Shown one piece after another: positions 11,701 to 50,700 of a stretch of 64,000 nt of DNA (position 1 is its first letter; each line of letters starts with the position of its first letter). The notes under the pieces are model-generated. The model searched no databases. It was not told where the DNA came from and saw nothing but the letters and a program-made list of their open reading frames with translations. This stretch comes from Ascidia mentula (taxonomy: Eukaryota; Chordata; Ascidiacea; Phlebobranchia; Ascidiidae). The stretch spans positions 2,609,001 to 2,673,000 of the forward strand of contig OX387204.1 of assembly GCA_947561715.1 (NCBI GenBank), written 5' to 3'. The translations under genes were made by a program, and so were the position numbers.

Positions 11701-14700
11701 GGCGTACATAATCCATGCAACTTCATAAAATAAATGTTAAATTGTATTTCCATAAACTGCTATTATTTTGTTTTCCCCAACCCTACAATCATCCTTCCTG
11801 GCAATATGCAGTGTTATTTCGTTTTAACTATATTCTAATTGTTGATAAATTATTGAAAGTGAAACATGACCATGATATATTCGGACCATTGTTTTTGTCA
11901 CGCCGAAAATTCAATTGTCTAAAATTTATAAACGTTTCTCTACTCTGTCGTTGACCCCCGCTTTAAGTTGACAGTTACTACTATATATAACGTCGCTTAT
12001 TCAACGATTTTGTTTTTGCATTTCAGGCGCGCGAAATTGTCCTTTTCAACCCTTCAGACGCACCAGTAATACTTCAAATTCTGCCTGTGGCATTATACCC
12101 GAACGCCAAGGCGGTCTTAAACGCTTTAAACTTAATACATCTTTTTGAAACCGAAGATTTCACCATCAAGAACAGAAACGTCTTCACTATTTCCTTGCCA
12201 CCAAACACTGTAAGCAGACGTGCGTTTATATTAAATCCATGCAAGATTTGAGATTAAAATTTTCTTTTCCGCGTTCAGAAGTTAAAGACTGGAACTGTGA
12301 CCAAATCATTTATAATGTTTAAGTCAATCTACGCCACTTAAGCGTTGTTGTTTCTTAATCAATGACAATCCTAATGGCAAAAGTACGTTTATATTGACAT
12401 TTTCTCTGCAACAGTGCAGCAAATTGGCCTTTTCGTACATGACATGTTCATGTATTTCGTGTTTGCAGTCCTCGCAAGATGGTTTATCACAAATGACGTG
12501 GCTGGATTACAAACTTAACGGCAAAGCGAACAGATCTTGCATCAACATGTTTCTTAATCCTGGCCAACGACAAAACATCGAAATCATATTCTCGCCAGAG
12601 AACGCCACTCGGGTCACCACTGTGATTTTAATTCGGTGAGCAACCCGTTTGTAATTCTTCCTGTATTCGGATAAAAACGTTTTATAAAAAGCTGTTTGTC
12701 CCGTAAAGTTTAAAAAGTTTTGGAATGTGATTTGACGTTTTTAAACGTAAAGTTTTAGTTTTATTACTCAACGATAACAAATTCCACGATAAAACTTGCA
12801 TGTCTTCTGTAAAACTGCCCCTTCCCATTATTAAATCACGCCACTTTCCTTTAAGTTTTCAAAATATTCGCGAGGTTTTCCTTTAAATTTATCAACGTAT
12901 TTTTTCTACTTTTTGCAGCAACAATTTGACTGTCCTCGATTCGCTCCTCGTGAGAGGAGTTGGAGTAAAAGAAGAATTAAAGCTCGGAGGAAAACTCTCC
13001 AACAACCGGGAGTCGCTCAGATTCAAACTCACCGAAAGTCTGTTGCGCGATTGCTTACGTAAGTGATTACGTCATCGGCGTATAGCCTGTTAAAATGAAG
13101 TAAATGCTTGGAACGTCCCACAAATAAAAGTTTTTTTACCAAATCAATCAAATTCCTCACATAATCCGACAAAATCTGTTTCTTTACCTTTCAAATACCT
13201 TCGAATTTGGAAACCGCACGTTCATTTCTTTGCAGCTGAAAACAGGAAAGAGTCTCCGACGTTCACGGTCCGCAAGTCGTTCACGGCGAAAAACCTGGGA
13301 CCACTTCCCCTGCAGGTGTTGTACACCATGGTAGATAATTACCCGTGCGAAGGTTACGGATTCCGAGTACTGGAATGTGAACGCTATCTGCTGCAACCCA
13401 ACGAAACGCGTGACATCATCATAGCGTGAGTAGCCTGCAGTAGTTCCTAATTTTGTTGATTAGTGGCCTAAAATGTGTTTTTATGGCGGCTTGTGGTCCG
13501 CTACCATGGCCAGAATCAGTTATGCAAAATCTCGGTGGTGACCTTCATTTGATCTCTATGATAAACAGCAGGCCATTTTTTAAGCGCGGGGCTATTTTTA
13601 TCAAAGCAGGCGAGTGCTGAAGAAATTAGAAAAAAAATAGTTCAATCTATTCAAAAAGCGCTGTGAAAATGCTTAGTGGTTCACCACTAGTTAAAATAAA
13701 TAGATTGCCGGTGTAAGAATAACCCGGGGTCAAACATGAATGGCAAGTAATCAACAGAACCTTTCTATCCATACAAAATGCATTTTTAGATTCACGCCCG
13801 ACTTCACAACGTCACAAGTGCACCGCACACTCCGCATTGTGACGCAACAAGGCAACGTGTTGACGTTTAACCTCAACGTGACCTTGCCTCACCGAATGCT
13901 GACGGCATGTCAGCAAGCCATGCCACGCCCCACGTGGGAAAAAAACCTTTACTATGTAGTCACAATGGTGATGGTGGTGCTTTTCGTTGGCACCATGCTG
14001 GCATCGTACTTAGAAGTAAGTTATACTGGTGTTAAAATATTTTACAACCTTTAACATTTTAACTTAAAAAAACTGCTGAATTTCTTAAAAGCGATTGCCT
14101 AGATTAAACGAACGTGTATTTGGTACTGTAAATGCCGATGACCCAAACTTGCTTCTACCCAACAGGCGATGAATATATGGGAGCCGTTTGTGCGTCTCTA
14201 CGAACTCGACAAAACTGTTACGTCACAGAGTAATGGGACGGGCTCAGAAGCGACACCTAGCGGTAAAATCAAGCCCTTCAACCTCCAGCATATCGCAACC
14301 AACTATATCAGCACTGCGCAGGGTACTGAGCGACCGAAAAGGTGTGTACGTATTCAGTGACTGGTGGTATAGGTCTTTCTTGGTGAAACTGGCTGCTGCG
14401 TGTGTGTTACTTGAATCGAAAGATTGTGGTGATATGTGTTAAAGTTTTTGAATTTGGCGATCTCGGTGAGTTATAATTTATATGTTACCACCCTGATCCT
14501 AAAGTCAACTGACCGTTAAAAAACACAAGCAGTTTATGCAATTACCACAAAACCACCAGAATGGAAGTTAGTTGTAAATTCCAGGACAGACAAAATTTGA
14601 AAAGTTCGATGTTTTATTTGCTGTTGTTGCGTCTGATGACCTTCCAGCTGGTGTGCAACCAACAGCGTGCAGAAGCTTCCTCGTGCTTCATGCTCTGCAA

Positions 14701-17700
14701 ATCACAACGTGAAATGATTGCGCGCTAGTCGTGTAATGTTTAGGCCACACCATTCTCGTGCAGTAAATTGATCCGTCCATGGCAACTGCAGTGATCTTTT
14801 ATACCACCATGGCAGAAATGATACTTAGTTTTATCACCCTGTTTAAGACAAAACTTCTGTGTCTTAAACAGGATTCTTTCAGTACGTTGGCCCTTGACTC
14901 GGTTTGACTGTCGGTGCGATGTTTAGTCGCCTTCAGATGTGTTTTTTGTGCAAAAAAGGACTGCCTTTTTATGTTAATATCTGTGTAGCAATTATAACTT
15001 TTTGTTCGTTTTCGATATGACCAGCTGTTGCATGTGCATGGGTTTTACTTACTTCAAATAAGCGATTCAAATATCTTAAAGGCAGTAAAATACTTGTTCC
15101 TTTGCAGTCCAAGACGTCTTAAATCCGTTCCATCGCGACCCAAGCCAAACAGCTGGTTTTCACCACTACGTGGCGCCTACGAGAAGATGCTGTCGTTGGA
15201 TCTCATTCAGCTTATGCGCACTTGGCGGAGGAGCGCACCGAACGTTCACGACAAGGAATCTGGATCCGACGAAGATCCCGAAAATATCTTCAAGGACATT
15301 AAGCCGGCCCCGGCGGTTACTGAACAGCTTCTGCGGGATCTAAGTGTCTCAAACGTCGCCAACACAGTCGCAAACTCCAAAGTACGTCATAGAACTGGAG
15401 GGCGCAACAAGGCGAAGGGAAGAAGAGATTCAAAACCCAACAAGAATTTTACCAACGATTTCGAAAGCAAGGACAGTGTAGAGGTCGAAGACATTCCGTG
15501 GTCCCCGCCAGAAAATTTGCAATACGAAAAGAAATCATCTGCAAGAGTGAAGAAGTCACCGGAACGCGTGTCGAGCAGCTCAAGTTTTGGAAGTTCGCGA
15601 AGCCGAGGTTCAAGTCTCAGTAGCGCCCCAAGCGAGAGCGAAAAGATAAAACCCAACGATAAAAACGAAGGTGAGTGCAAGGTCATAAAGTTTCTTAATG
15701 GAAAGCAATCAGCGTCCACTAAATTTACCCCCCTAGAAAACACTGTAAATTAGGCTGGCATTATTTTGCTGCAATCTTTGCGACAGTTTACCAAGTTTAA
15801 TTTTCTTACTGTTCTACATATAGACACCTTTGAATTAAGTTCTTACCGATTCTGAACCCCGCATTTGCCTGTTCCCTGAATCACGTTTCTGTTGATGCAA
15901 CGACTGCTGTTCATAACAATAACTGGTAAATGTTGAAATTTGTTTGCAGGAAAACGACGACGCAAAACGAAACTAGTACGCCACCAAGCGGTGACCAATG
16001 AAAACGACGACACGTCATCAACCACGACGGAAAAATCGAGCGAAGATTTCGAGGACAAGGTTGGTTTTTATGGCAACGTACCGCGTTCTAACTGCAAAAT
16101 AATTACTAAAGTACAACGAAAAAATCAGTGCAAACGGCCTGTTGGTATCTTACTGGAAAAATAATAAAAAAAAACAGTTAAAATTTGGAAAGTTTAGAAA
16201 CTGGTCCAACAAACCCCTGTTGCAAAATTTCATTTGGCGAAAGCACGTTGTAATTTTTCGACTGACAACTGATAATTATCTCATCGAGGTTTACAACATA
16301 TTTTTATTTCCTAGTCGTCGTTTCTCGTCGATTCATGGAAACAAGATTCACCCGTGCGAACCGCTATCTCCCAGGGAAAGCCCCTCAAAAACAAGAAAAC
16401 AGATGAGAGCAGCGCGATCGTCAACAGCAGGTTCGACTTTTGGCTCAACCCTGGCTTGTGTAAAACCGCACACGCGCGTAACCGGAAATTGTGCTTGCGC
16501 TCCTGCAGTGACACGCCGTCGTACACAACAGCGAATGAGAGCAGCGTGCGTCGACGTCACACACGACCGACATCCACCAGCTCCGTTAAGAACACGAAAC
16601 CGACCCCGCCTAAACCGCTTAAAGTAAACATTTTTTTCAATTATTTATTTTTTATATGACGTAAACATGTAAAGGTGCAAACGACTTTCAAATTTAAATC
16701 CTTGGTTCCAACGAAATAAAAGGAAATTACAGGAAATAATTATTCCATCACTGCAACCAACTACAATGTGGGAGTTGCATTTATCGTATGACGTTTTTAA
16801 AGTGTCTTATTCACAACAGAAATCGAAGTCCACAGTTCATCATTACTATGATACGAGCAGTACTGACGAACCGGTTTACTGGGACGACCCCAAGATCACG
16901 TTTAACAGAAAAGGTACCATTGGATAAAAGACCAAGTAGATTGTTAAATTTAGCAACATTTTCACATAATTTGTTGTTGAACAGACGCCGACGAACGCAT
17001 GAAAGCTCTGGCCGATAACGCCCAAAAAGCGGAAAGCAGAATCCGGTCAAAGGGACCAGCTAAGAAAAAGGTGAACTAAAAATTGACTTCAGAACCAAAA
17101 CTCATCACAATGCCAATTGTGACGTGTTAATTGGTCTTGCCTGAACTGATGAAAAACGCAGTGAAGCTTGCCAGTAATTCTGTATTACAAAACTGTCATA
17201 TTTTGCGTAGATTCAACCACGCCCTGCGAGCGACGAAAAAAGAAACGGCTTTGTTGCTATGGCAACACCGACCACAATAATGACCGCTAGCGGCGCCACA
17301 TCTTCGGAGATTCCCCCCAGGAGAAGCAAACCGCAGCTTATCAAGGCCCAAAGCGTCCCAAATGAGCCATCGCCGAAGCCACGAACGCCTGTAACCTCTC
17401 GTCCATCACCTCAAAACGTTTCTGCGAACTCGCACAGCCCGACTGACTCCACCTTCTCCATATTTTCATCTCCAGGTGAGATTGGCAGCCAAATATCTCA
17501 AGGAAAATCAGTTTTTTTGATACAAAATATGTATGTGTCAACTTAGTATTGAACTGATCTTAAAACTGTAATGTGATTTGCAAAATGTTGGTTTGGTGTC
17601 CTTAATCGGATCCAGATTCGGCAAACGAATCGCAATTACCCCACGAAAAATTCCTTTTTGTGTTGCTAATCGATTGTGTTTGGAATCCAGGAACTCAGGA

Positions 17701-19034
17701 ATCGAATCACGTTACTCAGGTGCAGCCAATAATCAACCGCAGGATGCCGATTTGGAACAACTTCGGACAGAATTCTTTCAACATAACTGAAGGTAACACA
17801 GCAATGTTTAGTGGAATCGCCTGATTGGCAAGATCGTCTCACTGCGCAACCTTACTTGGCGATCACAACTATCGTATGGATATCATTAGGTTTATAGGCT
17901 TCCCAACCCAAGCATTGCGGCCTAGCTGGATCTGCCACGTTTTGGTAATTCTCTATTTCAATGAAACAAACAGGCGATGTTTTTACCAGGCGACATTATT
18001 ATTTTAAATTCGTCAAAATTTCTGTTGTCTTTTAAAGACCGTTTGGCCATAGTGCGCTCCACAGTGGTTCGTCGTCTCTGTTGTTCGGTACCTAGTATAG
18101 GGTACCCTGCAGATCGACGTTGGCCAAAAGGTACCACAAAGTGGAGACTAGTGTGCCTGCTAGTGTGAAAGCTAGCACAGTGCCACACAACAGCTGCACT
18201 GATGAGACCTTACAGGTCGAAACACACCCTGTCTGCAGCTTTGCAATATTATGGCTTTTTTTGCACATATAAAGACGTTGTCATTTGCCAAATTTATTCG
18301 TTAACAATAATCCTTACTGCTACAAACTAATGCACTAAATAATTGCAATAACAAAACAAGGCTTTATAAAAGTTGATAAACTTTCCGAACAATAGCAAAT
18401 AACCTTGAAAACGTTTCAGGTCTATACCCACAAGCACCCCAGCGGATAGTGACTCACCCATCTCCAGTTGGGTCCCCGGTCCAGTGGTCCCCGCCTTGGG
18501 TCGCCCAGAGTGGGGCTCTTCTTAACGTTACATCGCCACCACCGGGTTCTCCGACAACACCAACAGTGAACGTAATGGCTCCAGCCCAAAAAATTTGGTC
18601 ACCAGCGGCGGGAAACCACTCGCCGGGTGCCCGCACCACGCACGAGATATGGTCGGTCAGCAACGCGGTGACCATGGATGAGGATCGTAACACAGCCGGG
18701 GTGCGTTTTGTATGTAGTTGTATGAAGGTATCGTGTTGCTACAATGCAATCTTTGGTGATTTCGTAAAATTTACGAAATCTTATGATAAAATACCCATAT
18801 CCATTCCGCCGTTTCCATATAAAAAAAATTTGCAATGTTAAAAGTACATTTTACTTGGTAAACAGAAATGCCAAATCTAATCATTTTCACATTAGACGTG
18901 TTAAGCACAGGTTCGCTAATCCTTCGCTAAAACAAGTATTTGATTTTCAGGCTGACCCTCTTGGTCTGAAAAGCATCTGGTCGTCGAACGAATCTATTCA
19001 ACGACGAAACAACGAAAATACCCATTTCTTTTGA
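31..19034 (+). CDS. TMEM131: TMEM131 family protein, 3' part of gene (32 exons)
   Basis: Exons read at 31-144, 584-706, 857-937, 1291-1441, 2086-2142, 2562-2732, 3494-3602, 4135-4291, 4812-4997, 5270-5374, 5657-5767, 6690-6794, 7670-7756, 8468-8565, 9067-9194, 9522-9639, 11513-11660, 12027-12209, 12469-12635, 12919-13058, 13236-13425, 13790-14015, 14166-14341, 15108-15670, 15950-16059, 16315-16623, 16820-16913, 16985-17070, 17211-17475, 17691-17792, 18420-18700 and 18951-19034 (TGA). All have AG/GT borders and compatible phases, giving about 1674 codons. Diagnostic matches to vertebrate TMEM131 include FEVVFLARVIGNVENTLFIN, EIPPYETK, ADNHTAYIRIKTN, NNLTVLDSLLVRG and IWEPF just after the membrane helix. 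TMEM131 proteins are ER/Golgi type I membrane proteins that help collagen assembly and secretory cargo traffic; the luminal PapD-like part binds procollagen and the tail binds TRAPPC8 (family knowledge). The N-terminus is off the window. TMEM131L is the alternative; tunicates may hold one ancestral gene. Confidence 0.93.
6690..14015 (+). CDS. TMEM131: TMEM131 luminal C-half and transmembrane helix
   Basis: Exons 6690-6794, 7670-7756, 8468-8565, 9067-9194, 9522-9639, 11513-11660, 12027-12209, 12469-12635, 12919-13058, 13236-13425 and 13790-14015. Landmarks are KIGKLYFDPRQDCKPDRCYVGLP (9067-9194), where the family has an IYFDP..C...CYVGLP block; the RWSAIENN exon; ILILP-like beta strands; NNLTVLDSLLVRGVGV (12919 exon); CEGYGFRVLEC (13236 exon); and FTPDFTTSQVHRTLRIVT leading into PRPTWEKNLYYVV. 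The last exon holds the only clear membrane segment, a Val/Met/Leu-rich stretch ending LASYLE. The Cys residues in the CxPDRCY and CEGYGF blocks are conserved and could form disulfides. Phases are continuous across all eleven exons. Confidence 0.9.
14166..19034 (+). CDS. TMEM131: TMEM131 cytoplasmic tail
   Basis: Nine exons (14166-14341, 15108-15670, 15950-16059, 16315-16623, 16820-16913, 16985-17070, 17211-17475, 17691-17792, 18420-18700) plus the terminal exon 18951-19034. The tail opens with NIWEPF after the helix, then is low-complexity and probably disordered, rich in Ser, Lys, Asp and Pro. It keeps the acidic Ser/Thr run DDTSSTTTEKSSEDFED, the late FGQNSFNITEG block (vertebrate FGNSFNLTGE) and repeated W motifs such as QWSPPW, KIWSPA and SIWSS. 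The vertebrate tail also has repeated W-S-P/W motifs and binds TRAPPC8. In exon 16315-16623, bases 16432-16506 look like a 75-bp in-frame intron (GTTCGA to CTGCAG) that would remove an odd Cys/Trp-rich stretch; both versions stay in frame. Stop TGA at 19032-19034. Confidence 0.88.
17829..17945. repeat. Fragment of the 57695-57866 repeat family
   Basis: Shares GATC-CACTGCGCA, CTTGGCGATCACA, GTATNGNGATCAT and GCATTGCGGCCTAGCTGGATCTGCCAC-like blocks with 57695-57866. It lies in the same TMEM131 intron as the ribozyme element at 18040. No flanking duplication found. Confidence 0.6.
18040..18269 (+). mobile_element. Hammerhead-carrying SINE-like retroelement, near full length
   Basis: About 230 bp, bounded by a short direct repeat TAAAGAC (18033-18039 and 18270-18276). 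The 5' part starts CGTTTGGCCATAGTGCGCTC and contains nested GGTACC palindromes. The middle has ACCACAAAGTGGAGAC, also found in the copy at 36607-36829. Then comes the ribozyme (18192-18240) and the tail TTTGCAATATTATGGC followed by T-run and GCACATA. The same tail occurs at 31164-31196 and 49926-49956. There is no open reading frame, so movement must depend on enzymes from another element (inference). The direct repeat is short, so the exact ends are uncertain. Confidence 0.7.
18192..18240 (+). ncRNA. Type I hammerhead ribozyme, intact core (sense in TMEM131 intron)
   Basis: Order of parts seen: stem I 5' strand AGCTGCA (18192-18198), core CTGATGA (18199-18205), stem II GACC-TTACA-GGTC (18206-18218), GAAA beginning at 18219, stem III ACA/TGT with a 5-nt loop CACCC (18222-18232), cleavage-site C at 18233, then stem I 3' strand TGCAGCT (18234-18240), perfectly complementary over 7 bp. 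All invariant hammerhead bases (CUGANGA, GAA, A15.1-U16.1, H17) are present. Stem III is only 3 bp, which is normal for retroelement type I hammerheads but weakens a monomer. Predicted cleavage is after C18233. Confidence 0.88.
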
Positions 19035-19552: not shown

Positions 19553-22500
19553 CGGTTTTAGGCGGAATTGATCAGAATGTGCCGGTTTCAAACAGGTTTC
19601 AGCAGCCCCTCGAACCTCCAAACCGGTTTATACCGGAATTGGTGACGTGATACTTTCGGTCGATTTTCGAAAAAACACCAAGGCTAACCCCTTTCCGTTT
19701 TTTCGGATTTGGGCCAAAACAAAATTGTCCGGTTTCACCCGGAAATTGCCGGAATATTCCTGTTTCAAACCGGTTGGGGCCGGTTTCAGCAGCCTCTCGA
19801 ACCCCCAAACCGGTTTAAACCGGAGTTGGTGACGTGAAACTTTCGGTCGATTTTCGAAAAAACACCAAGGCTAACCCCTTTCCGTTTTTTCGGATTTGGG
19901 CCAAAACAAAATTGTCCGGTTTCCCCCGGAAATTGCCGGAATATTCCTATTTCAAACCGGTTGGGGCCGGTTTCGGCAGCCTCTCGAACCCCCAAACCGG
20001 TTTAAACCGGAATTGGTGACGTGAAACTTTCGGTCGATTTTCGAAAAAACACCAAGGCTACCTTTCCGTTTTTTCGGATTTGGGCCAAAACAAAATTGTC
20101 CGGTTTCACCCGGAAATTGCCGGAATATTCCTCTTTCAAACCGGTTGGGGCCGGTTTCGGCAGCCTCTCGAACCCCCAAACCGGTTTATACCGGAATTGG
20201 TGACGTGAAACTTTCGGTCGATTTTCGAAAAAACACCAAGGCTAACTCCTTTCCGTTTTTTCGGATTTGGGCCAAAACAAAATTGTCCGGTTTCACCCGG
20301 AAATTGCCGGAATATTCCTGTTTCAAACCGGTTGGGCCGGTTTCAGCAGCCTCTCGAACCCCCAAACCGGTTTAAACCGGAATTGGTGACGTGAAACTTT
20401 CGGTCGATTTTCGAAAAATCCGTTTTTTCGGATTTGGGCCAAAACAAAATTATCCGGTTTCACCCGGAAATTGCCGGAATATTCCTGTTTCAAACCGGTT
20501 GGGGCCGGTTTCAGCAGCCTCTCGAACCCCCAAACCGGTTTATACCGGAATTGGTGACGTGAAACTTTCGGTCGATTTTCGAAAAAACACCAAGGCTAAC
20601 CCCTTTCCGTTTTTTCGGATTTGGGCCAAAACAAAATTGCCCGGTTTCACCCGGAAATCGCCGGAATATTCCTTTTCCAAACCGGTTGGGGCCGGTTTCG
20701 GCAGCCTCTCGAAGCCCTAAACCGGTTTAAACCGGAATTGGTGACGTGAAACTTTCGGTCGATTTTCGAAAAAACACCAAGGCTAACCCCTTTCCGTTTT
20801 TTCGGATTTGGGCCAAAACAAAATTGCCCGGTTTCACCCGGAAATTACCGGAATATTCCCGTTTCAAACCGGTTGGGGCCGGTTGCAGCAGCCTCTCGAA
20901 CCCCCAAACCGGTTTAAACCGGAATTGGTGACGTGAAACTTTCGGTCGATTTTCGAAAAAACACCAAGGCTAACCCCTTTTCGTTTTTTCGGATTTGGGC
21001 CAAAACAAAATTGCCCGGTTTAACCCGGAAATTGCCGGAATATTCCTTTTCCAAACCGGTTGGGGCCGGTTTCAGCAGCCTCTCGAACCCCCAAACCGGT
21101 TTAAACCGGAATTGGTGACGTGAAACTTTCGGTCGATTTTCGAAAAAACACCAAGGCTACCTTTCCGTTTTTTCGGATTTGGGCCAAAACAAAAATGTCC
21201 GGTTTCCCCCGGAAATTGCCGGAATATTCCTGTTTCAAACCGGTTGGGGCCGGTTTCAGCAGCCTCTCGAACCCCCAAACCGGTTTATACCGGAATTGGT
21301 GACGTGAAACTTTCGGTCGATTTTCGAAAAAACACCAAGGCTAACCCCTTTCCGTTTTTTCGGATTTGGGCCAAAACAAAATTGCCCGGTTTCACCCGGA
21401 AATTACCGGAATATTCCCGTTTCAAACCGGTTGGGGCCGGTTGCAGCAGCCTCTCGAACCCCCAAACCGGTTTAAACCGGAATTGGTGACGTGAAACTTT
21501 CGGTCGATTTTCGAAAAAACACCAAGGCTAACCCCTTTTCGTTTTTTCGGATTTGGGCCAAAACAAAATTGCCCGGTTTAACCCGGAAATCGCCGGAATA
21601 TTCCTTTTCCAAACCGGTTGGGGCCGGTTTCAGCAGCCTCTCGAACCCCCAAACCGGTTTAAACCGGAATTGGTGACGTGAAACTTTCGGTCGATTTTCG
21701 AAAAAACACCAAGGCTAACCCCTTTTCGTTTTTTCGGATTTGGGCCAAAACAAAATTGTCCGGTTTCACCCGGAAATTGCCGGAATATTCCTGTTTCAAA
21801 CCGGTTGGGGCCGGTTTCAGCAGCCTCTCGAACCCCCAAACCGGTTTATACCGGAATTGGTGACGTGAAACTTTCGGTCGATTTTCGAAAAAACACCAAG
21901 GCTAACCCCTTTCCGTTTTTTCGGATTTGGGCCAAAACAAAATTGTCCGGTTTCACCCGGAAATTGCCGGAATATTCCTGTTTCAAACCGGTTGGGGCCG
22001 GTTTCAGCAGCCTCTCGAACCCCCAAACCGGTTTAAACCGGAATTGGTGACGTGAAACTTTCGGTCGATTTTCGAAAAAACACCAAGGCTACCTTTCCGT
22101 TTTTTCGGATTTGGGCCAAAACAAAATTGTCCGGTTTCACCCGGAAATTGCCGGAATATTCCTGTTTCAAACCGGTTGGGGCCGGTTTCAGCAGCCTCTC
22201 GAACCCCCAAACCGGTTTATACCGGAATTGGTGACGTGAAACTTTCGGTCGATTTTCGAAAAAACACCAAGGCTACCTTTCCGTTTTTTCGGATTTGGGC
22301 CAAAACAAAATTGTCCGGTTTCCCCCGGAAATTGCCGGAATATTCCTGTTTCAAACCGGTTGGGGCCGGTTTCCGCAGCCTCTCGAACCCCCAAACCGGT
22401 TTAAACCGGAATTGGTGACGTGAAACTTTCGGTCGATTTTCGAAAAAACACCAAGGCTATAACCCCTTTCCGTTTTTTCGGATTTGGGCCAAAACAAAAT

Positions 22501-23391
22501 TGTCCGGTTTCACCCGGAAATTGCCGGAATATTCCTGTTTCAAACCGGTTGGGGCCGGTTTCAGCAGCCTCTCGAACCCCCAAACCGGTTTATACCGGAA
22601 TTGGTGACGTGAAACTTTCGGTCGATTTTCGAAAAAACACCAAGGCTAACCCCTTTCCGTTTTTTCGGATTTGGGCCAAAACAAAATTGTCCGGTTTCAC
22701 CCGGAAATTGCCGGAATATTCCTGTTTCAAACCGGTTGGGGCCGGTTTCAGCACCCTCTCGAACCCCCAAACCGCTTTAAACCGGAATTGGTGACGTGAA
22801 ACTTTCGGTCGATTTTCGAAAAAACACCAAGGCTACCTTTCCGTTTTTTCGGATTTGGGCCAAAACAAAAATGTCCGGTTTCCCCCGGAAATTGCCGGAA
22901 TATTCCTGTTTCAAACCGGTTGGGGCCGGTTTCAGCAGCCTCTCGAACCCCCAAACCGGTTTATACCGGAATTGGTGACGTGAAACTTTCGGTCGATTTT
23001 CGAAAAAACACCAAGGCTAACCCCTTTCCGTTTTTTCGGATTTGGGCCAAAACAAAATTGCCCGGTTTCACCCGGAAATTGCCGGAATATTCCCGTTTCA
23101 AACCGGTTGGGGCCGGTTGCAGGAGCCTCTCGAACCCCCAAACCGGTTCAAACCGGAATTGGTGACGTGAAACTTTCGGTCGATTTTCGAAAAAACACCA
23201 AGGCTAAAAATTGCCCGGTTTCACCCGGATATCGCCGGAATATTCCCGTTTCAAACCGGTTGGGGCCGGTTTCAGCAGCCTCTCGAACCCCTAAACCGGT
23301 TTAAACCGGAATTGGTGACGTGAAACTTTCGGTCGATTTTCGAAAAAACTCCCTTCCTGTTTTTTCGGATTATGGCCAAAACATAATTGAA
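19553..23391. repeat. Satellite array, ~21 units of ~187 bp
   Basis: The anchor sequence AAACTTTCGGTCGATTTTCG recurs at about 19648, 19835, 20022, 20206, 20392, 20560, 20747, 20934, 21121, 21305, 21492, 21679, 21866, 22053, 22237, 22421, 22610, 22797, 22981, 23168 and 23322. Most steps are 187 or 184 bp; the 3-bp difference is GCTAACCCC versus GCTACC before TTTCCG. One unit (from 20392) is shortened to 168 bp and the unit at 23168 to about 154 bp. Units are nearly identical inside the array and diverge at both edges. Each unit holds seven CCGG motifs, several inside ACCGGT or paired AAACCGG/CCGGTTT dyads. Long open frames on both strands are a by-product of the repeat and are not called as genes. 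Confidence 0.97.
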
Positions 23392-30060: not shown

Positions 30061-32733
30061 TCAATTTGCAGAATATTTTCTTGTGGGCGTGGATTGTCTG
30101 AAGTCTTTCCACAAAGCAGTGGAAATTCCTGCTTCGATCCGAGAGATCTGATAAAAAAAATACATTAAATAACAATTTATTTCATACGTAGTAACACGCT
30201 TTGCATTGGGATTATTCAGCTCTTCCTCACACATTAGTAACTTTGCCACGTAACATAGATAACGATAAATACAGAGTCTATGACTATGTTCATTAAATAT
30301 ATCAAACAAAATACTGTTAAATTAAGCCTAGTTTCTTATTTGAAAATAGGATGCTTACCTTTTGCCACACAACCTCCACCTCCGTTCGCTAACAACGTAA
30401 CCTTCAAATGTCTTTGTTCGAGAACTCCACGAGATTTCGAAAGAACGCTGATTGGACGTGACGTCATAACAATTTACCGCGCGCGTCAAAGTTACGGATG
30501 AGTAGTCGAATTGAGTTACTTTTACCAACATAACTATGGTCCCATAAAACGTATGGAAATTGTTGGAATATTTTTACAATATTTATTCTTTCTTTCACTC
30601 GCGATAGATTTAAAAAACTTCACTTATGTTTTGTTATAAAATTTTATTGGTGAATGAATAGGGTTGCCCTAAAAACGAAGGATTTTACCTGGCAACACAG
30701 GGAATTTTAGTGTGCAAGTGTGGCGTTGGTTGAACTTTGGCAAAAAAGTCCCTTTATGCCATTCCTGTGTGTTTTTTAGATCTTAGCCTGGGCCGACACA
30801 AAAATTTCCGGTTCCACGTCAAATTTAACAGAATATTTACTCAAACCGGTTGGAGCAAGTTTCAGCAACCTATAGAACCTCTAAATCGGTTTTAGACATT
30901 AAATTTGTGTTGTATTTTTGAAGAAAACACCTTTCTCTGTTATTTCTGATTTCAATTTGGGCTGGCACAGATTTCAACTTTCGGCCAATCGTCTATGTTG
31001 GGTACCAAACTAGGTACCAGTCAACATAGACGAACCACGTGGAGCGCACTATGGCCAAATAACTGTTTGGGACCCAGTAGCGCTATCGGCTCGGCTTTCA
31101 CCCAAATCAGCTGCACTGATGAGACCATACAGGTCGAAACAGTGTGTACACCTGTCTGCAGCTCTTAATGACTATTATGGCTCTTTTGCACATATAAGAC
31201 TTCAATTTGTGTGGTGAGTTTTGGAGAAATAATGTCTTTCTTTTTTCCCCATGTTTGGCAGAACGAAAAATTCATTGTTTTTGGCAGAAGTAATCTTAAC
31301 AATCCGTTTAAATGAACTTCCAATCCGGTTTTAGCTGTCTATCAGTTTTGCGATGCTTTTGGTATTAGTTTTCCGAATGAAACCTTTCTGTTTTCTCAAG
31401 CTATTGTTTTGTTGTTTTTTCCTAAAGTCTTGGAAATAGCAAACCGTCATATTGAACAACAATAACTGCTTCTTTATTCAGAACAAATATTTTTTTTTCA
31501 CAAGTACAACACCACGAATACATTCTTTTTCAAAGTTATTTTACGTTAATGTTGGATTGGTTTGTGCGGCCATTCTTAACGATTTGATGGTTTACTTCCA
31601 AAATAAATCGTTTTGTCGGATTTACCGCAAACATATTCAATACACCTTTTTACAGGTTAATTACAACACAAAGCACATGTATGACGAAATACGATTATAA
31701 CACTTCTTCTCATCTTTGCCCTCCACCAATCGTACTACGTGACTTCATATTACGTCGACGATGCGGATCTGCACATGATGAGCAATTAGTAAAATGTATG
31801 TTTCCACGCCTACATTTTAAAACCATAAACACAATCATAATTTTATTCTCCTGCCATAAGCAGATTACACTTGATGTTAACGGGGTGGGCGGGAGCTTAG
31901 AACCAAAAATGTTTATCGTGAAGCTGACCACAGGAACGAACTTTATTTTGTTTTTACTCACTGTTCTGAGCTCCGTCCGGTATTTTTGACATCTGAAACA
32001 AGTATTGTTGTTAGTTTATAAACTATGGTGTCTTTGGGGATAAAGGGGTTGCTGAGTGTTTTTTTCGAAAAAAATCTGATTTTTAAAATCTAATCTTCAT
32101 ATTTTATGCTTTTCTAGTAAAGTACTTTTCCCGTGTGATTCTTGACTATAATTAAGCTAAAAACACATATGGTTTCCATTTGGGCAATTGTCATTAATTC
32201 AATGCTAAGATTCCCGCACAAAAGCAGTCAATCTCACCTCTCCCACGACCTCATCCCGTAACTCTTCAACCGTGACATATTTGCTGTACTTCGTTTCTAA
32301 GGCGTAAAGATATTTGTCGAGTTGCTTCTGCACGTTCAGTATTTGTTGGTTTTCGCTGGTTTCGATCTTGTCTGCACACATGTGAATTATACATTACGAG
32401 TTAAACGAAACAAATAAAATAACATTGGAGACGTAAACATTTTTTCGGGTTATTTTAGGTCTATCGTACCATGCGAACATTATGCAATGTTAATTTGCAT
32501 TGCTTTATTTTGCAAATTAATTGCTTTAATTTGGTAATTTATTGTCATGAAACCCTTCTAGAGATTAACGTCTTTTCATACAAACGTCTTAAGATTAAAC
32601 TTTCATAAATTTACTGGTTTCAATATTTCGAAATCGAAGCACATAAATTATTTTCAAACCAATGCATTCTTACATGGCAGGGGTGGGAGCGGTGCATCTT
32701 CTCCAGAAACTCGAGGTGGTTTTACCTTTTTCT
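30061..32733 (-). CDS. Polycystin-like: C-terminal tail with coiled coil and last exon
   Basis: Exon 32674-32733 is proline-rich (KPPRVSGEDAPLPPLPC). Exon 32238-32371 encodes a heptad-rich helix (QQILNVQKQLDKYLYALETK) fitting the coiled coil with which polycystin-1 family members contact PKD2. The last exon, 30061-30147, encodes ISRIEAGISTALWKDFRQS and ends TPTRKYSAN with TGA. The 2.1-kb intron before it (30148-32237) carries a diverged satellite unit and a ribozyme retroelement. No AATAAA was noted close downstream of the stop. Confidence 0.78.
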
Positions 32734-35700: not shown

Positions 35701-38700
35701 GGATTGTTATTTTTATGGCTCTTCTCATCAGGGATTTCATGTAGCCTTCGTTTCTAACTTTGATAATTTAACTTACGCCTGCGGTTCGAATGCAGCACCT
35801 CAATGAGTACTGATTATTTTAAACTGATTATTAACTGATTGGTGGTTTTATATTGGATGATCGATTGCCGATTTTATATAAAAGTTCCATGTAACATAAA
35901 TATTAGGATAAGAAGTTACGTGACACACACCATGTGATTAGATAATACTCATCATGCCATATACATCACATAATACGCGTCATTTGATATACACTATACT
36001 ACTACACTTAACAGATACCTATCACAAGTATATAAATGCTGATAATCACAATTTTCTTATAACCGTGTTTGGTCATTTATACAAGCGTCGAATGCCTTTC
36101 ACATTTAGGTATATTATATAATAACCACGTAATAGTGGTTTATTAAAACGATACAATACCACTTTTCAAGCGCAGTTGCCGCAGTCGCGCAGGTCCGACC
36201 CTAAACGATTGTTCGTCGGTGAGGAAACTTCTGTCCCTCCAACTTTTTCTCTGACCGTTGTACCACTCATTCGAGTAGAGATTGGGAAGGACCGTATGAC
36301 GCACGAACCGCCAGAAGTGTTCCACTGTATTGGCCTGTATTCGTTAAGCAGAAGTTATTTTCGGCCAAGAGGAGATTTGTATTTTATGCGTTTGTTTACA
36401 TGGCGGTAAGGAACGAAAAAGAAAACCATTGGAAACCAGAAAATGTGACTCGGATTTGATGAGAAATGTAGTCAACACACGTTCTAAGGTAATCTTGGTT
36501 CAAGCATAGATCCGGTGCTGTATAATCGTAGTATATATTGTATATTTTTTCCATATTTAAATATATGTTTAACAAGAAAGTATGTGATTCAAACGAGTTT
36601 TACTAATGATAAGCAATGTGGAGCCAATATTATGAATTGTGTATAAGCTGCAGACAGATGGCCACTGTTTCGACCTAAAATGTCTCAAAGGATGACGGTG
36701 ATTGCATAGTCACCACAAAGTGGAAGTCTTTGCTTGGCCGTTTGGTTAGCAAAGTCGTCTGAAAGTCACACCAGTTGCACTGATGAGACCTTTTAGTCGA
36801 AACAGTGGCCATCTGTCTGCAGCTTATACACGAGTTTTACTAAGCCAGAATCAAATTACGTTGCGTACAATCAGTGTAAACCCCAGACTACATATCTCGA
36901 CAATGACAAAACCCAAGTAATAGAAATTATATAAGCAAAAATAAACGAAACAAACCGATTTGAGCCCAAAAGTCGAATCCACGAAAGTTTTCTTCATCTG
37001 TTCGTTGATGAGCTGTCCAACCGAATCCCTGGTTCCGTGACACAAGAAGAGGAGAACCATGATGTAGAAGAAGTAGGAGATCACCTCCCAAATGATCTGA
37101 GACATCTTCTTCTCCTTCTCCCGGAGCTTCCGGGCCTTGCGAAGTTTTCTCTTGCTTGGAGGTTTGGGAGCCGCCAGGTTGTCCGCCTCTTTTGATTGGA
37201 GTTCAGCCTCTGCGAAAAGACTTGTGTGAAAACAAGACTAAATAGGCAAATTTAAGTACGTAGGCAATAAATCTTAAAATGGTAAGAAAAAAAGTTGGAA
37301 ACAAAATAATTCTGGCAAAAAAAGCGCGTTATCGCTATCGTAAGTTGAAAAATGGGTGTCAATTTAGTAAAAAAAAAACATTTACATTTCCGAAATTACT
37401 TCGGACTTTTGAAAAGCATGAGCCTGTATATATTCACACTGACGCGAGAAATAAAGAATTTTGAACTTCAACAAGATAAAGATGTATACATAGCGACCCC
37501 TTTAACTAAATAATGAAACCAACGTATTTCAACAACACAACGCAACAGGGATAAAACGCACCAATGTTGTCGGCGCACAAATTCACGAATTTTCTTTCAG
37601 CTTCTTTCACTTCCCTGGGGTCGACGCTGTCCAGAGCGTTCTGGTCAGGTTTCTTCAGAACAGCGGCCACGAACATTGCGAGTATGATAACCTGCAAAGT
37701 AGTTAGAATTCCCATCGTGCAATCTGGTACAGCCGTTCGTAATATTTTGTGTGTTAATAAAAATTTCCCTACAAAATAAAAAAATTAACAAAAAAACGTT
37801 TTTATCATCTCAACGTGATATTTAAAATAAATTAAATTGATGAAATTCACACAAGTAAAAGATTCAACGCTCCGCGCATCAAAACGGTGCATTCCACTTG
37901 TACCTTAATTGGTTGCACGATTAGTACGGACTGCCAGAAGGACAACATCATGTTTGCAAGCCACCTGTTCGCCTTTTCTCTTCCCCACTCAAAACTAAAA
38001 GGAAAATAAATTGTCATTTTATTCCCATAATTAAATAAAAAAAGTGTCAATATGTGCAAACTAAAATATGGATTGATATTGCGAGTGTGATATATGAAAT
38101 CTACAACATGTGGAAATGAAACCAAAAGCATGTATGCTTTCACGGCATATTTATATAAATTAAAGATCTCTTCGAACAGAGGAATTTCCCAATTCCGATT
38201 GCCCAGTACCTAACATTACCAGACGCAAACCTTCACTACCTGTAGAGAATTGCAAAGAAACCGGATAGAATGACGGCAACCCATGTTAGGAACCAGGCGA
38301 TATAAACCACCCAGTGGGGCCACTGCGCCACCCTGTTCCGCACACCGACACCACCGGTATTTGGTTGCGTGTTGATCGTCCCATCAGCGTTTATGGTGTA
38401 AACTGCGTCACAACCTCTGATGTCAGATGGGTCGGGAAGGGAGGACGCGTGTTGATGACGTTTATCTGCGACGTGCATGGGAGGAGAATGTAATGGTGCT
38501 GTTGAAAGATGCTTCAAACGCATCAACGAAACAAGAATATTTAGAGATACTGCATCAGAAAAATAGTCAGGTTGAATTTTTTGAAATTGTTTTGAACATT
38601 TGGTGTTAATATGGAAGTTTTTTGTCCAATTTATAACGCGCAGCCTTAAGATTTTAAACATGGTTGGAACTTCTGAATTAAGCACAACTAAATATGTCAA

Positions 38701-41700
38701 ATGATCAGCACTTTAATTCTTAGACTAACTTTTCTGCATCAAAAGGTTCACAGGCTTCGCAGCCAAGGCATTGCAGCCAAGCTGAATCAGCCACTTTTCC
38801 CGACAAGTCGGAGCGAGATCTGAAAAATCAAGCTCCCGGTGAGGTTTGAACTCACGACCCCGGGCTAACCAGGCCCAACGCTCTACCAACTGAGCTACAG
38901 GAGCTCAGTGGTTTCACGGGGTATATTGTGGTCAAGGTACACTGGTGCGCAAGCGCACAACTTGTCAGGCGACCTTCACAACGTAGAGGATCTCCACCAC
39001 CGTAATCAGACAACGCAGAAGTAATACCTTGATGCTATGCGAAAGCGTGGTATTACTTCTGCGTTTTCTGCATCAATTTTTTTTTTCGAAAAATTTGCCT
39101 CTGCCATACATTTGCAATTCAGGGTATGTTTTACCGCACAGTGCAAGTATTATCTCTAAATTTGGGCCTTTGTCGTCAAACTCTTTGAACCAAATTTAAC
39201 GTCATCCACATACTTATTCTATTGAACTTTCGAACAGCGTTAGCAATCGTTTCCTTCTCTTCCTCATCAATCTTCTCTTGTTCGTTAGTCTTCGCCTTTT
39301 TGAAGAGCGTCATGATAGTGGTTGTTATTGGAACCACCATCAACGTGCTACAGAAGCTGGTCCACAACTGGAGAGGGGACACGCTAAAACATGATGAACC
39401 GAGGTCGTGAAAATAGATCAGGATTGTTGTGTGTTTTTGTGTGAAAACATAGTGTGTTGCAGTTAAACCAGTCAATTCAAACGAATTATGTTTGATATTT
39501 TTGTGTAGGTGAGCGGGCGATAACACACTGCTTCAAAATCTTGTGGCTTTTGGAAATTTTTTCGTACAAAAACTAGGTCAGTACGATGGCCAATTTTTTT
39601 CTCCGTACAGCTTGAGTGACTGTGATTATTTTCAGGTAACATTATAATGAATTTGTTCCATGACAGAATTTGGCAAAATTAAAACCCGCTATATACTGCA
39701 ACCAAGTGTTTGGGAATTACAATAAACAGAACTAATTTACAGCTTGCGTAGAAAGAGGTTTGGACTTACGTAAAAGGACCCACACTTAAACTTGCAGTTC
39801 CACTTTTATCCGAGCTGGCCCCGCGTTCAAAAAACATGGCGTTGGCGATCATAGTGACGAAAAGGAGACAGATACAACACGAGAGTCTCTGCATTCGGGT
39901 GAAGTTGCTTTTCGTCGGCCGATAAAACAACTGGAAATAAAAATAACATTTTTGCAAACCAGTTAACAAATTGATTGATGTTTAGGTTCAAAGCATTTCG
40001 ATTCATACAAAAATAGCTTTTGATTCATGTGGTTGCGACAATTTGATCACTGGCCGACATTTTGGTTGATTGTGAGAACAAAAAATAAAATAAATTGTTT
40101 AAATGTGTGATCTGCATGAACAGACACTGATAAACCGTTTTCTATTAAAACATATTAGTGCTGTAAGATCCTGGTAAGTTTCGCAATCTCGACTCACTGA
40201 TATCCAGAGATGATCTTCGGTGAATTTCTGGGTTGTGGTTGAGACGAATAACCTGTGGAAAGCAGACATGTTTTCCGGGGTCGCAACGGGAAGAATGCGA
40301 TCAACCTTCCCATCGCCGTGATCAACCGCAAGCCATTCATCACATATGAAGAAGTACCTACAGAAGAATGCCGTGCGGTTTACTTGTATTGGAAATAAGT
40401 AACCTTTGTGAAAAAGATAGACTACACTATTTTCAACACATCGGGGGTTTCCAAAATGGGAGCAGAGACCCAGCGCGGGGCCGCACGTCGCCTTTTATAC
40501 GTTTTACTGCAATTAACTGTTGCATTGAAATATCTAAATAGAACTGTCAAACACGAGGGATCACAGAACATTGTTCGCGAGCGTAAAAGTTTGGGAATCC
40601 CTAAAATACATGAACATTTTTCCATTCAAGCGTAAATTCCATGATGCGGTTTTGAACTGTTATCGCTGTTTCGATTTAAACGTCAAATTTTTCAAAAACA
40701 ACTTGTCTTCCATCGCCATACGTTAAAGTGACTTTGGCAAGACAATGAACGGTTCGGTTTAACAAGAGTTTCCATGGGAACACTGAGCTATTGCATCGTA
40801 AAATAAAATCCTACAAACCCAAACTTAACCACCAACATTCTCACCGCTTTCCCAGTCTGACGTTTTGCACGACGACCTGATCGAGATACCAGCTTCTGTT
40901 TTCTCCCTTGCCGGAATTATCGTGCCACACGTGGGCGTGCGTGAGCTCTCCGAGGTCCTTCGATTCTCGTATGAGAAAGTGGACGACGCTGCTGCGCGCG
41001 AAAGGGTTCAGGTCCTCTTTAATTTTTAGCTGTCGGACGCGACTTTTTCCGTTTGCGCCGAAAATGACACAGGACACTTTGGAGGTGGTGGCTGCGTACC
41101 TTCCGTGGCCAGTGAACACTGTTACTTGGTACAAGTGCTTGTCTTCCTTCCTGTTGTCGAGGGTCGATTTGAGAGCCCACTACGAAATTAAAAATCGTAT
41201 TTTATTGATTTGTGTAACAACCCCAGTCCCCAGGCCAAAATAAAATTTGCTCTTTTAGTGACTCGGTAAATTTTGCCGTCGTTCTGAACATTAACACAAC
41301 ATTAAATAGTTAATAAAATTAAACGTGTTTTGACGGACACCAAGCTAATAACAACAAATATGTCGTATTATATCTTGAGTAAGCATTAAGATCAGCCAGC
41401 TTGACAAGTTTTCTGTCAGAACTTATTCACAAAACAAGGAAAACCACCTTCTTTGCATCTAGAACGTCCATCCTGTTCGCCCACACCAACATGATCACAT
41501 ACAGAATGATGAAGGATATTACGGTGGAGAAGACAGCCGGGTTGTCGGCGATATCCACTTTTGCCCACACAGTGGCGAAGTTGATTGTGTTTGGAGGGAC
41601 GAAAAATTCGGCGCTGAAAACGGAAGTCGCAGACAGTTTGCTGCAAATGCACTCCGTCACTTCCGGTGTACTTCGAGTGTCGACCTGAGATTGCGAAACT

Positions 41701-47700: not shown

Positions 47701-50700
47701 AAGTGAGAGTAGATTTTGGCAACCTCTCTCCTTCTTTGGGATACGTCCTCATTTGACCTTCATCTTTCCAGTTCCGGCATTCAAATATTACCTGTGTGTT
47801 CAAAGTTATTTACACCAATGCACATATCTCGTAGCCTTTATTTTCTATAAGATTCAGTCATTGGCAACCTAACATCTTTTTGGAGTTAAGTTAGGCCAAA
47901 AATCTTGATAAGGAAGTTAGTTTTTGTTGTTTATTAGAAGCCCAGAAAATGCGAAAACACACAAAATAAAATTATATTTTCCATAACAATACCTCATCAA
48001 CTACAGCCCCTCCCTTGTAAAATAACCTCTGATAATGATCAACATAGGGGTGATATTGTAATGCACGCTTGGCTGATTCCTTGTTATGGTCGAACAATAA
48101 ACATTGTGACGTACGTCGGTCGAATGAGATGGAGAGGCACATGAACACCCTGCAATAAAACAAACATTAAATTTTCAGATAAATATATCTTTATTCAGTT
48201 GAAAAGGTTATTATTAGACAATTTTCTTTAGAATATACGTATTGTATTTTTACAGTGTGTCCAAATGCCACTAAATGTACGACACACGGTAATACAGAAT
48301 ATAACATTTTTCTTGCAACTATACTTTTGTATCTTTTGGTGCCCACTAATTACCCACCTGTTAAGAACCACTGTAATACATCATCGCATATAAACGTTTT
48401 TATGCGTAACAAACGTCTGTGTTACATCACAAAAACTTGTAACTACAGTAATTTGTGTTTTTGTCAACAATCCAGTAGAAGTTATTTGGTAGAGCGCTGG
48501 CAAAATGGAAGAATTCAATTCAAAGTTGCAAGACGACGCGAAGTCGTTATTCGAAATGCAGTTGCCGAATCTATGCCGGCGATTCCACAATATGTTAGAC
48601 AGTGAACAGTTCAATCAAACAGCAGCTGAACGAGTAAGAGTGGCGGCGCGTTCCAGTTGTCAGAAACTGGCCGAAATCAAACAGGCAAAGTTAGGAATTT
48701 GGCGGGAATTAACAAAGAAGGCAAATGTTGGTTCAAACAGCAGTGACGAAGACGAATTTCACACACCTATGACTTCAGACTCAGAGTTAGAGGTTAGCGA
48801 ACCTCCCCGAAAGCGACTGAAAAAGGAGTTTTTCAAACGCAAGAACGCCCCCAAAACCAAGACCGATGACAGCGATAAAAGCGACAGCGATGGCGAAGCC
48901 GACAACGATGCAGTACTGGAATGTAATCCACACATATGCGCTATGATGGAAGTGTTGAAGCCAGAACTAAGGGCTGTTACCGAGTGCTGTAACACTGTGC
49001 GGGCGTGGGTGCAGTTACAGGTTAGTACCAAGCACAACAGTACCAAGTATACCCAATATTAATGCTGGAATAAAAAATTAATTGCCACACACTTTGTATA
49101 ATAGAACAAAGTACCTTTATTTGTCGCTTGTTTAATATTTGATCACTTATACAGAATTTTAAAAATGTGTTAAATGTTTCGTTTGGAACTGGTACATGTA
49201 CTGCTAATAACTGCCAATATTAATAAAGTACTTTATTTCCAACTTATACTTATTATGGATAGTTGCAGCAGTACTTTAAATGTAAATAAAACAAAATTCA
49301 TTTTGAACTACTACCAAGCTTTACACCTTTCGCCTCAACACAAGTGTCAATTTTTTTTTGCTAAATCGCCACAGGTACCGGCTATGCAAGACGGTAACAA
49401 CTTTGGTGTCGAAGTACAAGGTGACGTGATAGAAGAAATAAGACGAGTGGAAGGCGAAAGTTCAGCATTTCTGCAAGCGCTTTCCCTGTACCACCTCACC
49501 AGGGCTGACCTTGCGAGCAAATACGCTAAAAACACTGGTGTACTAGACTACAGACGAGCTATTGAGGAGCTGGACAGCAAAGAGGTCACCAGCCTTCGGC
49601 TGATAGCACGGGAAGTCAGGAATTCGTGCGTTACGTTACTGGATACGATTGTGAAGAATATGGACAAAGTGCTTTGTCCCCGCGCGAACAACGAAAACAT
49701 GCTTGTGTGCTGATGCACGTGGTACTTTTGCGATTTTTTGGTGGGTAAAAGGAGATTTTTGGCGGTCTTGCTAAAAATGTTAGCGGATTTTCAAACAAAC
49801 AATTTGGTGGGTTTTAAAATCTATGTGAGGTGAGTACACGCACTGTTTCGACCTGTAAGGTCTCATCAGTGCAGCTGTTGAGTGGCACTGTGCAAGCTTT
49901 TACACTTGCAGGCATACTTTGCTAGCTTTGCAATAATATGGCTTTTTTTGCACATATATGTGAGGTGAGTTTTCACTAAATCTGACAGACGAAATTTGAC
50001 ATCTATCTCGAAAAGAGTTGGCAGTCACATTTAGGATAGATGTAGCCTAGATGCGTGTACCCTTCAGCGCAAACTTTCTGTGAAGCTGTCTGCTGCTGTG
50101 TTATGAAAAAACATTACCGTGTAAGGCAGCAGTGTTGGGAACATTTCTCAAACGTGGAATTATCCAGAACTTTTTTCGGTTCCACTCCAGTTAAATGCAG
50201 CTCTTTGAACGGGATGAACTCTTTGCAGTTTCCTGTAATTATAAAAAAAAACATCGAGTTCTTTCGCGTATTTTCAGGTGTTGCTGAGAACTCAAAACTT
50301 TCGTTTATTCCTACTATCACGACTTTTGTTTTCTGCTAAAGGAGCAACATAGGGCCGCCTGACCGTATTTTAAATTTTTTATCAAACCACGTTTGAAAAG
50401 TCTATGGTTTCTAGAAAATCTTCACTGCTTTCTTTGAGGCAACTGTGGTCATTTTCACATATTTTTTTATTTATATAAAATAAGTGTCCATCTTTTTCCC
50501 AATTAACTGCGATCACAACCAGGAAGAATCAAACTTTAAACGCCTCTGTTCACACCTATGGAGGCTGCTGTGGTGCATTCTCCACCGTACGGTGGAAGAT
50601 TAGTGAGAAATTCGAAATCCGAGAAGCTGAAGACTCTGTCGTCGAGTCCGTCCATGGAGATGTTGATCCTCATTACATACTTCCTTCCTCCAACCAGAGC

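Follow-up and report, generated by a model that had tools for sequence, protein, structure and literature searches.

The hammerhead motif at positions 18192-18240 of a 64,000-nucleotide stretch of the Ascidia mentula genome (the window) is very probably the ribozyme of a 5'-truncated, non-autonomous and non-coding retroelement copy, which lies in sense orientation in an intron of a TMEM131-family gene. The element appears to be of the metazoan non-LTR retrozyme kind, an assignment that rests on anatomy and not on a homologue among the named retrozymes. This anatomy comprises a type I hammerhead, arrays with a spacing of 284-293 bp, target-site duplications, divergent composites, and Penelope-like elements (PLEs) with GIY-YIG matches in a like layout, all of them read from the genome sequence.

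The hammerhead motif

The preliminary description of this DNA reported a complete hammerhead at 18192..18240, and every catalytic base and stem was found there, base for base. The parts of the motif are as follows.

18192..18198, plus strand: stem I, 5' strand, AGCTGCA (sequence check)
18199..18205, plus strand: catalytic core CUGAUGA, CTGATGA in the DNA (sequence check, Rfam alignment)
18206..18218, plus strand: stem II, GACC-UUACA-GGUC, arms 18206-18209 and 18215-18218, 4 bp, or 5 if U-A is counted
18219..18221, plus strand: catalytic GAA (sequence check, Rfam alignment)
18222..18232, plus strand: stem III, ACA-CACCC-UGU, 3 bp; the family form is ACAG-14 nt-CUGU
18233..18233, plus strand: C17, with cleavage predicted 3' of C18233 from its place in the hammerhead scheme
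18234..18240, plus strand: stem I, 3' strand, TGCAGCT, 7 bp with the 5' strand

The A15.1-U16.1 closing pair of stem III is formed by A18222 and U18232. On its primary structure the motif is a canonical type I hammerhead with an intact core and three stems. Hammerhead_1 (RF00163) was the top Rfam family by E-value (22.3 bits, E 0.0087, span 18193-18239), a score that does not reach the gathering score of 34 bits, and RAGATH-1-hammerhead gave 23.3 bits (E 0.19), also under the cut-off. The Hammerhead_1 cut-off was passed by none of the 73 genome candidates that were scored, the best of which reached 26.7 bits.

The host gene

The motif was also said to lie in sense within a TMEM131 intron, and this placement agrees with the gene model: the motif is on the coding strand, there are Pfam Ig_TMEM131L matches upstream, and the reading frame is open through the junctions.

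17793..18419, plus strand: intron of the TMEM131-family gene, 627 bp, GT...AG borders, frame open through both junctions
17691-17792 and 18420 onward, plus strand: coding exons bordering the intron, exon model inferred from sequence

The Pfam domains Ig_TMEM131L_4 and Ig_TMEM131L_5 match four upstream plus-strand frames at 11991-14054, two of them above the cut-off; a Pfam search of the nearer frames at 14998-15753 and 17211-17475 gave no match. We infer that the exons bordering the intron are part of a TMEM131-family gene. From the predicted cleavage site to the 3' splice site of the intron there are 186 nt. A tandem array with a 187-bp unit (4.4 + 15 copies, 96% matches) follows closely on the TMEM131 exon region, at 19595-23349, and its period is unrelated to the retrozyme period. 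Elsewhere in the window ARAGORN predicts a tRNA-Thr (GGT) at 38830-38905 on the minus strand, and Rfam agrees that it is a tRNA (54.5 bits).

The repeat copy in the intron

The motif is carried by a copy of a dispersed repeat, and a similarity search with positions 18030-18300 found 86 or more matches genome-wide, that of the window included.

18040..18269, plus strand: 5'-truncated copy of a 291-bp retrozyme-type repeat, 94% identity to the tandem unit with gaps counted
18033..18039: left target-site duplication TAAAGAC, 7 bp
18270..18276: right target-site duplication TAAAGAC, 7 bp

TAAAGAC is found only twice in the intron, at the two borders of the copy. A flanking repeat of 7 nt is weak by itself and could be due to chance, as 19.5% of mismatched flank pairs reach this length. 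The copy is single, not tandem, and non-coding. Compared with the majority sequence of 50 copies it has three substitutions in 233 aligned bases (1.3%), one falling on a position that is variable within the family, and one deletion of 11 nt, which lies inside stem III and reduces it from 4 bp to 3 bp. The resulting 49-nt version of the hammerhead occurs once in the genome. The copy seems to have landed in the intron fairly recently, as a young copy of a mobile element.

The conserved intronic hammerheads of amniotes are single-copy and are kept between species. The window motif is like them in being in sense and in an intron, and unlike them in being a copy of a mobile element that differs by 1.3% from its family. 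The preliminary description had likened it to intronic hammerheads of vertebrates; its slight divergence from a mobile repeat and the direct repeat on its flanks argue against membership of the conserved group, and the stem III deletion, which makes the window copy less representative than the family, weakens the likeness further.

The hammerhead repeat families

The pattern made of the core, stem II and GAAACA has 831 + 829 exact matches (1,660) in the 196-Mb genome and the reversed pattern has 0 + 0, which excludes chance as the source of the hammerhead family. Two families were distinguished. Family A has a tandem unit of 291 bp with a G+C content of 47.8%, and identical 291-bp units are present at locus L025; family B has a different body and spacings of 284-286 bp. 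Exact matches to the full hammerhead number 75 + 69 in the genome for family A and 236 + 231 for family B. Among the matches listed, all 32 pairs of same-strand neighbours within 1 kb have a spacing of 284-293 bp. In the same assembly mitochondrial COX1 has AGA/AGG at glycine sites, which is the ascidian code, and a polyA RNA-seq run (ERR10378036) is listed for the published A. mentula assembly (PMC11109543).

The window holds three further insertions with hammerheads.

31109..31163 (core 31116), plus strand: second hammerhead of the window, complete, with a 4-bp stem III
36593..36843: third insertion, an antisense fragment and then a sense copy, with a 14-bp flanking repeat ACGAGTTTTACTAA
36773-36824 (core 36780), plus strand: hammerhead of the third insertion, stem II one base short
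49822..49970: fourth insertion, an antisense arm and then a short sense arm, with a 14-bp flanking repeat TATGTGAGGTGAGT
49846-49876 (core 49846-49869), minus strand: hammerhead of the fourth insertion, truncated ahead of the 3' strand of stem III

The third and fourth insertions are head-to-head. The predicted hammerhead fold is the minimum for family A and for the copy at 31109 (both 0 kcal/mol), and lies 0.9 kcal/mol above the minimum for the copy in the intron, 1.4 kcal/mol above it for family B and 2.4 kcal/mol above it for the copy at 36773. A 90-nt sequence of family A has a predicted minimum-energy fold other than the hammerhead. Prediction also extends stem I, with an internal loop, in the intron copy and not in this 90-nt sequence. 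In four sequences compared with shuffles the motif was not markedly more stable (z -0.5 to -1.7).

Covariation was scored on an alignment of 32 of the 34 distinct rows, without those of L029 and L075, which have insertions, and hammerheads lacking a recognisable 3' strand of stem I were skipped; 95.7% of the cells can pair, yet no measure rose above the shuffles. Because the pattern that found most rows of this alignment fixes the core, conservation of the core in it carries no weight. In 50 copies retrieved by similarity over the whole repeat, none of 443 core bases varies, and variable sites make up 3 of 60 in the hammerhead and 29 of 231 elsewhere (p = 0.11); this is suggestive of purifying selection on the hammerhead, is not significant and comes from copies that are not independent.

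Four similar loci (L058, L059, L063 and L064) each contain a sense and an antisense hammerhead 42 bp apart. These hammerheads were apparently duplicated together with a neighbouring gene, a nearby exon of which presumably resembles a TRP-type ion channel.

Insertion scars

The duplications flanking the repeats were examined in 20 of 29 insertions, leaving aside L011-L013 (near copies of L010), L032 (the twin of L031), one fragment of L037, and L058, L059, L063 and L064, the ends of which are undefined. Comparison of the two flanks gave a longest direct repeat of at least 7 nt in 18 of the 20, against 19.5% of 380 mismatched flank pairs; this count takes in unclean cases, namely L014, where the repeat is inside the element, and L031 and L040, where it is away from the border, and the control does so alike. 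A repeat of at least 9 nt was found in 11 of the 20, against 1.3% of the 380 control pairs. At L050 and L071 the longest repeat is only 5 nt. The duplications are up to 15 bp long, and thirteen selected ones are 78% A+T, compared with 60% for the window. What lies within one duplication may be just one copy, copies arrayed head to tail, or a pair of opposite-strand arms.

The order of the opposite-strand arms is strongly biased. Neighbours within 1 kb are in minus-plus order, with their 3' ends outward, in 22 of 23 pairs among the matches listed, and in plus-minus order in one. The set of pairs consists of 100 listed places of the core pattern, all of which were entered, and of exact-hammerhead places of families A and B with a neighbour within 1 kb, which were chosen by eye. 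Two pairs have an identical spacing of 411 bp and two have spacings of 332 and 329 bp, so some pairs of equal spacing may be later duplicates and not separate insertions.

Thirteen composites, with twins counted once, have at most 14 nt between their arms. In ten of them the unit positions at which the arms join differ by 25-221 (195/170, 1/121, 67/122, 105/234 and 158/256 are examples), and in three, the L010, L031 and L052/L054 groups, they differ by 7-18. In the L058/L059/L063/L064 group the aligned parts start at the same position on either side of the 42-nt spacer, and other composites have unaligned spacers that are longer, at 18-110 nt. The ten composites fit two separate syntheses better than one that folded back on itself; the three that meet closely and the L058 group do not decide between these models.

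Penelope-like elements

There are 121 GIY-YIG matches above the cut-off in the genome. Fifteen GIY-YIG loci were scanned for reverse transcriptase as pieces of 2-3 kb, and five contain one, in the same frame as the GIY-YIG match at L084, L091, L093 and L094 and in a neighbouring frame at L088; the match at L084 is weak and under the Pfam cut-off. The other loci may have lost their reverse transcriptase or may hide it. The GIY-YIG match of L079 adjoins a MOZART2 gene and may itself be a host gene. Since a reverse transcriptase is found in only five of the 15 loci and L079 lies beside MOZART2, some GIY-YIG matches may belong to something other than PLEs. On their coding content, PLEs are present in the same genome as the hammerhead repeat.

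Opposite-strand GIY-YIG neighbours within 6 kb are in minus-plus order in 17 of 17 pairs. Three of these pairs are tied to the PLEs identified here, L093 and L094 being the plus arms of two and L091 belonging to the array of the third. In L091, L093 and L094 the reverse transcriptase precedes the GIY-YIG match, so that minus-plus order means 3' ends outward. The locus G000:C67:6134028-6146916 contains five GIY-YIG matches in the order --+++, with a same-strand spacing of exactly 2,870 bp and open frames of up to 892 aa, and probably represents complete PLEs in a divergent tandem array.

The hammerhead of the 291-bp repeat was sought in 13 GIY-YIG loci, about 1.5 kb to each side, and was found in none, and the 291-bp unit has no significant similarity to these loci. 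A loose pattern found hammerhead-like motifs in five of the 13 (L080, L083, L084, L087 and L091), with sequences unlike that of the repeat. The motifs near the GIY-YIG frames of L080/L083/L087/L084/L091 read CTGATGATGAAC...GTTCGAAAC, CTGAGGAAGTC...GACGAAAC and CTGAAGAAGCCT...AGGCGAAAC. At L084 two hammerhead-like motifs form an inverted pair that flanks the GIY-YIG frame.

Comparison with known elements

Metazoan non-LTR retrozymes are described by Cervera and de la Pena 2020 (PMC7229834) as having a type I hammerhead, tandem repeats of 150-450 bp and a G+C content below 50%, with target-site duplications, when present, of more than 4 bp, and with PLEs in the same genomes. Further criteria for retrozymes are the absence of an LTR, a primer-binding site and a polypurine tract, a contact between loop 1 and loop 2, and linear and circular RNAs of unit length. 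The Ascidia family is like the metazoan retrozymes of that paper in its type I hammerhead, its 284-293-bp arrays, its G+C content of 47.8%, its duplications of more than 4 bp and the presence of PLEs; it is unlike them in its tunicate host, and the copy in the window is a monomer, truncated and short of part of stem III. The main text of PMC7229834 does not contain tunicat-, ascidia- or inverted, and divergent composites are not described there under the last of these words. No retrozyme in a tunicate was reported in the titles and abstract openings that the literature search covered, most subscription papers being outside it; nine loci of type I hammerhead were counted in the genome of Didemnum vexillum (PMC8704543).

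Endonuclease-bearing Penelope elements have been described with head-to-head arms, partial tandems and duplications of 8-10 bp (PMC3846280). A PLE protein has been shown to cut and extend both DNA strands in vitro, with a preference for AT-rich DNA (PMC11167929). The repeat family resembles these elements in its head-to-head arms, partial tandems, duplications and hammerhead, as far as they are described in these two sources. It differs from PLEs in that a 291-bp unit is too small for a frame with reverse transcriptase and GIY-YIG, and its hammerhead, which has a proper stem III, differs from the minimal PLE hammerhead type set out in PMC7761336.

Discussion

The window copy contains one ribozyme, so that no circle can be released from it, and as a monomer it is a dead end, although it may still make one cut in the TMEM131 intron. 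Some features would suit a functional hammerhead in the intron, cutting TMEM131 pre-mRNA and tuning its splicing: the motif is in sense, its core is intact, the intron is 627 bp long with 186 nt between the cleavage site and its 3' splice site, and the hammerhead fold is just 0.9 kcal/mol above the predicted minimum. This reading is very improbable: the copy is young, at 1.3% divergence, its stem III deletion of 11 nt is unique in the genome, and nothing in the analysis points to selection on it. A role of the ribozyme for TMEM131 is thus unsupported, and it was probably not built as a switch for the host gene. That the repeat is satellite DNA or a DNA transposon with a chance hammerhead is scarcely credible, as its copies are dispersed and vary in the length of their duplications and in their 5' ends, although tandem arrays and inverted arms are what such elements would offer. 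It is also improbable that the 291-bp repeat is a fragment of the terminal repeat (pLTR) of an autonomous PLE and not an independent retrozyme. PLEs are present, GIY-YIG matches have the same divergent layout, and the terminal repeats of PLEs carry hammerhead motifs according to PMC7761336; however, the unit lacks significant similarity to the 13 GIY-YIG loci, the hammerhead-like motifs at five of these differ in sequence, and the 291-bp unit repeats directly on itself, head to tail.

The retrozyme reading suggests how the insertions may arise. On the scheme drawn from PMC7229834, transcripts of tandem copies would cut themselves into RNAs of unit length, a host RNA ligase would close these into circles, and a PLE-type enzyme with reverse transcriptase and GIY-YIG would copy the circles into staggered breaks by target priming. 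If priming took place on both strands of the break, two arms facing outward would result, and more than one round of copying along the circle would give tandem arrays. Hammerhead cleavage is reported to be dispensable when the anole PLE inserts RNA in vitro (PMC11167929), so circles are not proven as the template. The scars suggest one two-sided, target-primed mechanism of insertion behind both the retrozyme-type repeats and the GIY-YIG/PLE elements; both follow the rule of outward 3' ends, which suggests the same machinery without proving it. The arms might instead have diverged through self-priming of the cDNA (snap-back) or a later inversion, and not through priming on two strands. Self-priming has been proposed for the inverted repeats of PLEs in PMC3846280, the arms of the L010, L031 and L052/L054 groups meet within 20 positions, and the aligned parts of L058/L059/L063/L064 start alike across their 42-nt spacer. 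We consider this origin unlikely, since the ten composites whose arms meet 25-221 unit positions apart, with at most 14 nt between them, form no palindrome, and an inversion would not yield the 22:1 order.

We therefore propose, tentatively and with somewhat less than even confidence, that retrozyme circles of tunicates are inserted by the GIY-YIG machinery of PLEs, which would prime both strands of one staggered break simultaneously and independently. The scar would consist of outward-facing, separately truncated and often multimeric arms within one target-site duplication, and would be common to retrozymes and autonomous PLEs.

Taken as an intronic ribozyme the motif is ordinary, being a single copy of an abundant mobile element. 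With no fewer than 1,660 hammerhead cores, this compact chordate genome is well suited to the study of retrozymes. The metazoan repeats are described in PMC7761336 as lacking a conserved motif from which the autonomous element that moves them could be deduced, and a scar common to the repeats and PLEs, if true, would be such a link to an autonomous element.
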